Shown here piece by piece: positions 47,871 to 59,417 of a stretch of DNA of 64,000 nucleotides. The notes beneath the pieces are model-generated. The model saw nothing but the letters and a program-made list of their open reading frames with translations. It was not told where the DNA came from and did no database searches. Position 1 is the first letter of the stretch, and each line of letters begins with the position of its first letter. The translations under genes and the position numbers were made by a program. Source of the stretch: Prochlorococcus marinus subsp. marinus str. CCMP1375 (GTDB lineage: Bacteria > Cyanobacteriota > Cyanobacteriia > PCC-6307 > Cyanobiaceae); NCBI RefSeq assembly GCF_000007925.1, contig NC_005042.1, positions 1,240,001-1,304,000 of the forward strand, read 5' to 3'.

Positions 47871-47889
47871 AATCAAGGCTTTAATTTAG

Positions 47890-47990
47890 GTGACCCGGAA
47901 TCCACGCCAGATTCAAGCATCCCTTGTGGCTGCTACCTTCCGGTCCTGACCAGATTTAGGCGTCGAAGCCGCATGGGCCCGAGTCTCCTA
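47890..47990 (-). ncRNA. ffs: Signal recognition particle RNA (bacterial small type)
   Basis: On the minus strand, CTGGTCAGGACCGGAAGGTA followed by GCAGCCAC is the conserved SRP RNA apical hairpin (GGAA-type tetraloop and symmetric loop bound by Ffh). The flanks pair to extend the rod: GACTCGGG at the 5' side with the CCGGGTC segment at the 3' side. It lies between ftsZ and panB on the opposite strand. Exact ends are approximate. Confidence 0.92.
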
Positions 47991-58275: not shown

Positions 58276-58521
58276 TTAATATCTATACCTTTTCATTACA
58301 TCTGCTGGTTGATTTGATTTAGCAGAGTCAAAAAGGATCCATTGCCTAGTTTCCGTATCATGATCACACCCTGCTTCAGAGGAATTAAGCGCACTCAACT
58401 CAAAATGACATGCTTGATCTGCCTCAAAAGCTGATCTGTATTTGCTTTTCAAAGATAAGCTGACTAAAAGGAACGTGAACAAAATCAATAATGAAACAAC
58501 AATGCCAATAACTATCTTCAT
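58276..58521 (-). CDS. Membrane-anchored small protein, 81 residues
   Basis: One N-terminal hydrophobic segment (about 3-24, GIVVSLLILFTFLLV) is followed by a soluble part of about 55 residues with two cysteines (QACHFELSAL and SEAGCDHDTETRQ) that could form a disulfide if exported. It converges on the 67-residue membrane gene with 20 bases between the stops. Function is unknown. Confidence 0.6.
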   Translation of the reverse strand: MKIVIGIVVSLLILFTFLLVSLSLKSKYRSAFEADQACHFELSALNSSEAGCDHDTETRQWILFDSAKSNQPADVMKRYRY

Positions 58522-58870
58522 AACAAAAGCTATCCCATAAGCTTAAATACTAGTACTTATTTAAACTTATGGTGGGGAAGGCTGTGATTTACTTGTCCAA
58601 TCATCCAAGTGTTTTAAGTGCTATGTAACTTTAATGTTTTAACTATATATATAAAGTTCTCTCCGATCGTAAAAAGCAACAATAGCCTAATTGCTCGCAT
58701 TATCTACTTAAACTCTCCCAAGAAAATCTTTTTGCCCATTTCCAGATAACCAAAAGACTGTAAAAACTAGCTTTGAGCTAACGCCTTATCTCAACTGTCA
58801 CTGTGACAGTTGAGATAGCTACCTTGATCCTGCCCGTAAAAATAAACTTTAGTAATAATTATATTGTGAG
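58522..58870. other. Gene-free spacer upstream of the small-RNA candidate
   Basis: About 350 bases contain no frame longer than about 20 codons that I would support. The main structure is the perfect palindrome at 58787-58817. AT-rich stretches near 58640-58660 and 58853-58865 could hold -10 elements, the latter for the RNA starting near 58870. Confidence 0.6.
58787..58817. repeat. Perfect 31-bp palindrome (15-bp arms, 1-base centre)
   Basis: TATCTCAACTGTCAC, then T, then GTGACAGTTGAGATA, with no mismatch. No T-run follows on either strand, so it is not an ordinary terminator; it could be an operator for a dimeric regulator or an RNA hairpin. Nine bases of the right arm (AGTTGAGAT) recur at 58872-58880, in the 5' stem of the small-RNA candidate. 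Confidence 0.9.
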
Positions 58871-58962
58871 GAGTTGAGATTTAGCGAAGGAGTCGAAACT
58901 AGGAAAGACTTCCTAAGCCAATCTCAAATAAAAGCCCTGCTATTAGCAGGGCTTTTATTTTT
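58866..58962 (+). ncRNA. Small RNA candidate with terminator, possibly Yfr2/Cyano-1-like
   Basis: The plus strand has an outer stem TTGAGATT (58874-58881) with AATCTCAA (58920-58927), an inner hairpin TAGGAA-AGAC-TTCCTA (58900-58915) and then a strong intrinsic terminator (58926-58960). No coding frame fits. The overall pattern (short structured domain directly followed by a terminator, with GTCGAAACTAGGAAA in the middle) resembles what I remember of the abundant cyanobacterial Yfr2 (Cyano-1) family, but I could not verify the match. A TATATT or TAATAAT box lies just upstream. The exact 5' end is a guess. Confidence 0.7.
58926..58960 (+). terminator. Strong rho-independent terminator
   Basis: AAATAAAAGCCCTGCTA and TAGCAGGGCTTTTATTT are perfect 17-base complements around a single T, so a stable GC-rich stem followed by a T-run forms at the end of the small-RNA candidate. 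It could also act on the other strand. Confidence 0.92.
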
Positions 58963-59120
58963 CTATTAATGTTAAAGGCATTCTACGAGCCCATTTAAGT
59001 AATCAGAGCCCTCAATCATTCTTAGAATTACTAATCAATATTCAAAAGTTTGTAAAGATCGTCAATATTAAATTAAGAACTAACGTTACGCAAAAGAATT
59101 ATCTTTCTTAAATAAAATCC

Positions 59121-59417
59121 TTAACTTCGTCCAACGTTATAAACAAATTGCTGGAAGGCTGGAATATAAAAATACGCTGCTACTGCCAAAACAAGCAGTA
59201 GATTCAACCCTAAAACAATTGAACCTATAATAATGCGTTGCCTTTTACCTGGGGTTTTATACTCAAACCCCCCTACTTTAATAAGAACCTCTTCAGAGGG
59301 TGGGTTGGGTTGAGATTTTGAATTTGATTTAACTTTCTTCGATTTGGAATTGTTCAAGACAAGCTCTGGATCTTTTGGTTGTCTTGATTCTTCTGAAGAT
59401 GGTTTTTTATTTCCCAT
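59121..59417 (-). CDS. Small protein with C-terminal membrane anchor, 98 residues
   Basis: The first 45 residues are polar and Lys/Ser/Pro-rich (KKPSSEESRQPKDPEL, KSKKVKSNSKSQPNPPSEE). A conserved-looking VLIKVGGFEYKTPGKRQR precedes one membrane helix (about 66-88, IGSIVLGLNLLLVLAVAAY) and a short tail. Likely a tail-anchored cytoplasmic protein. Spacer on both sides (about 160 and 124 bases) holds no other gene. The family is not recognised. Confidence 0.65.
   Translation of the reverse strand: MGNKKPSSEESRQPKDPELVLNNSKSKKVKSNSKSQPNPPSEEVLIKVGGFEYKTPGKRQRIIIGSIVLGLNLLLVLAVAAYFYIPAFQQFVYNVGRS

Follow-up and report, generated by a model that had tools for sequence, protein, structure and literature searches.

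A Yfr2 gene in the window

Yfr2 is a small regulatory RNA of nearly all cyanobacteria, and one of the few sRNAs to have been kept so widely. The window analysed here, a stretch of 64,000 nucleotides, covers positions 1240001-1304000 of the one-contig genome (1,751,080 bp) of Prochlorococcus marinus SS120; coordinates are those of the window unless they are said to be genomic. Using cmscan, we found that 58860-58929 on the plus strand matches Rfam family RF01701 (Cyano-1, the Yfr2 family) with 56.3 bits over model positions 1-69 of 69; the gathering score of this family is 41. An earlier note, made from the letters of the sequence, had guessed at a Yfr2/Cyano-1 member here and had proposed a search with the Rfam model in Infernal as the check; that search gives a full-length match above the gathering score and supports the guess. 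The note had also described an outer stem, an inner hairpin and a terminator following one another on the plus strand of a gene-free spacer: all three are present in that order, and 58860-58929 is free of overlapping ORFs of 60 aa or more. The SRP RNA that it had mentioned in the same window was recovered as a bacterial small SRP RNA at 47889-47985 on the minus strand (55.7 bits). Within 58500-59120, 17 further Rfam matches at E <= 1, mostly over the terminator, all score below the gathering scores of their own families. The element is an ordinary and well-supported member of the Yfr2 family whose promoter is informative.

The predicted transcript spans about 95 nt, from 58866 to 58961 on the plus strand. 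Its start was set at 58866 by comparison with the published SS120 yfr2, whose first base (genomic position 556701, complement) is the same G of GTGAGGAG; its 3' end was taken from the position of an intrinsic terminator, a strong one with 17-bp arms and a T-rich tail (58926-58962, stem to 58960). By eye, the terminator stem (58926-58960) has a T-rich end on both strands, and it may also end the convergent minus-strand gene downstream, an ORF of 98 aa at 59121-59417. A probable -10 element, AATAAT, lies at 58854-58859; it agrees with TATAAT at five of six positions, and NATAAT is found at a similar distance in orthologues. There is no good -35 element (the best hexamer scores 3/6), and a consensus promoter scan returned no plus-strand promoter at this gene. 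Pfam assigns no family to the neighbouring 67-, 81- and 98-aa ORFs.

Fold and covariation of the stems

The RNA opens with an unpaired 5' element, GUGAGGAGU (58866-58874), followed by an outer stem whose arms lie at 58875-58881 and 58920-58926. Nested within it is an inner stem formed by 58888-58894 and 58907-58914, which carries a bulged U at 58910 and encloses a 12-nt loop, GAAACUAGGAAA (58895-58906), defined by both the family model and the partition function. The bulge lies three pairs from the loop (position -4), as in the family description. In the partition function, six of the seven inner pairs have probabilities of 0.94-0.99 and the seventh, beside the bulge, has 0.49; the outer pairs lie between 0.77 and 1.0, and the loop is unpaired at 0.98 or more. 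The first eight bases are unpaired with probabilities of 0.99-1.0 (the ninth with 0.68), so that the conserved 5' GUGAGGAG at 58866-58873 is exposed, as is expected of the family. One structural detail differs from the earlier note: TAGGAAAGACTTCCTA (58900-58915) does not form a hairpin by itself, and its bases are part of the 12-nt loop and of the 3' arm of the inner stem. Forcing the self-hairpin costs 5.6 kcal/mol, and its mean pair probability is 0.0003.

The segment 58866-58962 folds at -39.3 kcal/mol, compared with a mean of -20.4 (sd 3.0) for dinucleotide shuffles (z -6.2; 0 of 200 shuffles as good). Most of this energy is owed to the terminator: with the terminator excluded (58866-58926), the fold has -16.4 kcal/mol and a z of only -1.83, and 10 of 200 shuffles do as well. 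Fold energy was therefore rejected as proof of the stems, which we hold to be real because of the match to the family model and because of covariation.

Covariation was assessed on an alignment of 58 sequences, comprising 31 of the 41 matches in the genus and 27 further loci among the family matches listed. As related sequences are not independent, the covariation and permutation figures that follow are not formal probabilities. Of the cells of the inner helix, 92.5% are paired (shuffles 72.1%, slid controls 29-48%). Its covariation score reaches 0.484, whereas shuffles give 0.154 and slid controls no more than 0.119, and 74 cells are changed on both sides against 26.1 in shuffles. Two other measures, the number of pairs with change on both sides (five) and the number of further pair types (10), do not rise above the shuffles, 397 of 500 of which reach each value; three of five measures thus lie beyond every shuffle and two do not. 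The stems do covary among relatives, the lack of which the earlier note had named as grounds for giving up its reading. In the loop, GAAAC and AGG vary little or not at all among the 58 aligned sequences; of 57 distinct rows, 44 close the loop with G-C and 13 with C-G, and the pair is never broken.

The outer stems were tested without an alignment, because a MAFFT alignment of seven orthologues was seen by eye to misplace the outer arms of one of them (L042). Over 50 distinct arm pairs, arms joined to their own partner have a mean of -8.6 kcal/mol against -4.0 when permuted, and none of 10,000 permutations is as good. Replacing the 3' arm by a foreign one gives equal or better pairing in a median of 6% of cases; for the window copy the figure is 8%, with two orthologues among the foreign arms.

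Copies in the genome and in related genomes

Three yfr2-type copies are present in the SS120 genome, with 56.3, 52.8 and 38.5 bits, and the window copy scores highest. The second, a minus-strand Cyano-1 match at genomic 556643-556707 in which GTGAGGAG begins at 556701, is by its coordinates the published SS120 yfr2, given as complement(556612..556701) in Table 2 of Axmann 2005 (PMC1242208). The third (L003, G000:C1:636172-636238, minus strand) falls below the gathering score; it has the GTGAGGAG start and an end that resembles a terminator, and its loop differs by one change (GGUAA). Neither the window copy nor the third copy appears among the SS120 rows of the excerpt of the PMC1242208 table. 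The window copy is undescribed in the literature searched; Gierga 2009, which lay outside that search, is cited in the excerpt of PMC6778093 as the source for many Prochlorococcus strains having two yfr2 copies, and so may already list it.

Cyano-1 matches occur in all 14 genomes of the genus (41 matches, 35 over the cut-off) and in 80 of 81 genomes of the family (over the cut-off in 71). A homologue of the 98-aa ORF was found in 12 of the 14 genus genomes, several of which are incomplete, and in seven of these 12 (G000, G001, G002, G005, G007, G008 and G013) a yfr2 lies beside it in convergent orientation. The position of the window yfr2 is common within the genus; among four strains, yfr2 loci are described in the available text of PMC1242208 as not fixed. 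A synteny search with the Glu/Gln-tRNA-synthetase-like neighbour returned seven loci, all non-cyanobacterial, and no DNA similar to the window element was found in the phage collection. The orthologue in G008 (L063, G008:C6:20911-20979) has an altered 5' motif, GAGAGGAG, no terminator-like site and no upstream palindrome at up to four mismatches, and is perhaps a decaying yfr2 copy.

A conserved palindrome upstream of yfr2

The main addition of this analysis is a conserved palindrome upstream of an otherwise normal Yfr2. A perfect palindrome of 31 bp, with 15-bp arms around one T, lies at 58787-58817, centred at -64 with respect to the inferred start, with its core, AACTGTCAC-T-GTGACAGTT, at 58793-58811; we take it to be a probable GntR/PlmA operator. 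The core pattern AACTGNCACNGTGNCAGTT (up to two mismatches) occurs once in the SS120 genome and is present in seven of the 14 genus genomes. Seven genus genomes have a window-locus orthologue, and in six of them the core precedes it at -64 to -67 (with two mismatches in G007). In the seventh genus genome with a core, G003, the site has two mismatches and lies about 2.6 kb from a yfr2, which looks like chance. The other two SS120 copies have no site with a 1-bp centre at up to four mismatches in the 200 nt upstream. By eye, a second, similar stretch that reads TAGYTRCM follows the palindrome (58816-58823 in the window) in five of the six orthologues that have the palindrome, L044 being the exception.

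Across the 81 family genomes we found 64 core sites, which were compared with at least 150 yfr2 places, those listed from the family search; at least 26 sites are near one. These include 13 of 14 perfect cores with a 1-bp centre, nine of 12 with one mismatch and four of 38 with two. Their distances to the inferred start are -64 to -68 in 17 cases, -28 to -31 in eight and -42 in one. One perfect core (L135, G091:C1:1228217-1228235) has no Yfr2 core within 701 bases by a regular expression, and the regulator may have a further target there. The variant with a 2-bp centre (up to two mismatches) occurs 16 times in the 81 genomes, 10 times near a listed yfr2 (seven at -64.5 to -67.5, three at -70.5); as only one of its five perfect sites is near a listed yfr2, this form is not specific to yfr2.

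We then grouped the promoters of 79 fetched copies, a partly different set in which up to three mismatches were allowed. RNAs with a GUC...GAC loop closure make up 18 of 20 copies in the -66 group if L151 is counted there (17 of 19 without it), and 8 of 35 copies that have no operator (9 of 36 if L151 is counted with these). All eight copies of the -30 group, and all 16 copies with the 2-bp-centre form at about -66, are GUG...CAC RNAs. Within the genus, 17 of 18 operator copies have a -35 hexamer at 3/6 or less and seven of 10 others have one at 4 or 5; this contrast fails over all 79 copies, where operator copies are no more often without a -35 than the others. Mean -35 scores are 3.4 for the -66 group with a 1-bp centre, 2.75 for the 2-bp centre, 4.0 for the -30 group and 3.1 for copies with no operator (among which L151, a -66 member, was counted at 0).

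A tentative reading, which we consider possible and would not favour, is that one operator serves sub-lineages of yfr2 promoters divided by RNA type: those at -66 mostly with GUC...GAC, those at -30 or with the longer centre at -66 with GUG...CAC, with one regulator then able to raise some copies and lower others among related cells. On general promoter geometry alone, a site at -66 would activate and one at -30 would repress. No -66/-30 operator pattern was found in the literature searched; Gierga 2009 and Lambrecht 2018, both outside that search, may contain one.

The available text of PMC6778093 reports that the GntR protein PMM1637 binds yfr2 promoters containing the element CGRE1. A single GntR gene (PF00392), an ORF of 328 aa at genomic 1651060-1652046, is present in the SS120 genome. 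The palindrome is probably this published target, to which we matched it by description, and probably the site at which a nitrogen- and light-linked regulator acts on the window yfr2.

Predicted pairing with Yfr10

According to the sections of PMC6778093 available, Yfr1 and Yfr10 are pairing partners of Yfr2, which lifts the repression by Yfr1 in E. coli; low-light II/III strains lack Yfr1, and SS120 has Yfr10. The 5' element GUGAGGAGU is a perfect 9-nt complement to part of the Yfr1/Yfr10 motif ACUCCUCACAC. An exact-motif search found ACTCCTCACAC twice in the genome. One occurrence was rejected as a Yfr1 gene, as it lies inside a 905-aa ORF. The other, at genomic 1596047-1596057 on the minus strand, sits in the loop of a hairpin with the stem GGACA/TGTCC. 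A terminator-like hairpin comes next, and the whole fits the description of Yfr10; no Rfam family matches this candidate at E <= 0.1. Its ACUCCUCAC motif is the only exact Yfr1-type motif outside an ORF in this genome. The perfect match to the motif is 9 nt long in the window copy and 8 nt in the other two copies. Among 500 shuffles of the 5' end, 16, 0 and 3 reach the pairing energy of copies 1, 2 and 3, so that for the window copy, with 16 shuffles as good, pairing energy by itself is modest support.

Interpretation and alternative explanations

Taken as a whole, the explanation that we consider likely is that the window carries an SS120 member of the Yfr2 family, probably the regulated copy among three, which is bound at its palindrome by a GntR protein and titrates Yfr10. 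A GntR protein of the PMM1637/PlmA type would bind about 64 nt upstream of the gene and might help RNA polymerase at a promoter with a -10 and without a clear -35. The resulting RNA of about 95 nt would end at the terminator, and its unpaired GUGAGGAGU 5' end would pair with the ACUCCUCAC motif of Yfr10 and so titrate it; from published work on MED4, the 12-nt loop may contact other targets. The analysis itself establishes the family membership, the covariation of the stems and the conservation and position of the probable operator; transcription, the protein that binds, activation and pairing in the cell are the inferred parts of this picture. With the operator at only one of three copies, SS120, which the available text of PMC6778093 reports to lack Yfr1, the partner of Yfr2, offers a natural case in which to ask which copy answers nitrogen and light stress.

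Three other explanations were weighed against this one. The palindrome might be a structured nucleic acid, either a hairpin in an upstream transcript or a cruciform, and not a protein site. In three genomes of the genus the arms beyond the 9-bp core are complementary with differing letters, adding 6, 8 and 12 pairs (L001, L042 and L044), an extension that a plain operator does not need. However, extensions of at least five pairs occur at only four of 44 yfr2-linked sites (and one of 18 others), the core letters recur in both arms, and, measured from the start, most sites cluster tightly at two positions, which makes a structured palindrome improbable. Slightly less probable still is that the window holds a degenerate or silent yfr2 whose fold is kept by descent only. 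The losses in L063 (altered 5' motif, no palindrome, no terminator-like site) show that decay at this locus does happen; the window copy, however, outscores the other two in its genome, has kept its 5' motif, loop, -10, operator and terminator intact, and has a compensated closing pair.

The least probable, to the point that we rejected it, is that the element serves a neighbouring gene as its leader or attenuator and is not a free sRNA. There is precedent in Synechocystis, where two members share a start with a downstream gene (available text of PMC2662882), but here the ORF that comes next (59121-59417) is read from the other strand, towards the element, and a strong terminator follows the element immediately.

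Comparison with known Yfr2 RNAs

The window copy resembles MED4 Yfr2-Yfr5 and the Cyano-1 family in its full-length model match, its unpaired GUGAGGAG 5' end, its terminator and its length of about 95 nt (excerpts of PMC1242208 and PMC2662882), and shares with the family the long stem, with its bulge at -4 from the loop, and the 12-nt loop itself (PMC2662882, in part). It differs from the Rfam consensus in its closing pair, which is C-G (GUC...GAC) and not G-C (GUG...CAC), and at loop position 6, which is U where the Rfam Cyano-1/MED4 comparison has A. The GGAAACA repeat described for MED4 Yfr2-5 in the excerpt of PMC1242208 is literally absent because of this closing pair, and the window copy has CGAAACU and GGAAAGA in its place; we treated the repeat as non-defining for the family. 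The flip is compensated, and recurs in the 13 of 57 distinct family-model sequences noted above and in the primers for Synechocystis Yfr2b/c.

From those published primers, Yfr2b and Yfr2c have the same GUCGAAAC...GGAAA arrangement (excerpt of PMC2662882); in both, a downstream protein gene uses the same start site, whereas the window copy ends at a terminator of its own and its neighbour is convergent. The published SS120 yfr2 is of the same family, lies in the same genome and has the same GTGAGGAG start. Unlike the window copy, it has no palindrome at up to four mismatches in the 200 nt upstream, and it has a -35-like hexamer, TTGCAA (4/6), and a GUG...CAC closing pair. CGRE1 is described in the available text of PMC6778093 as a motif of yfr2 promoters in marine picocyanobacteria, and the window palindrome, compared by description, is likewise one.
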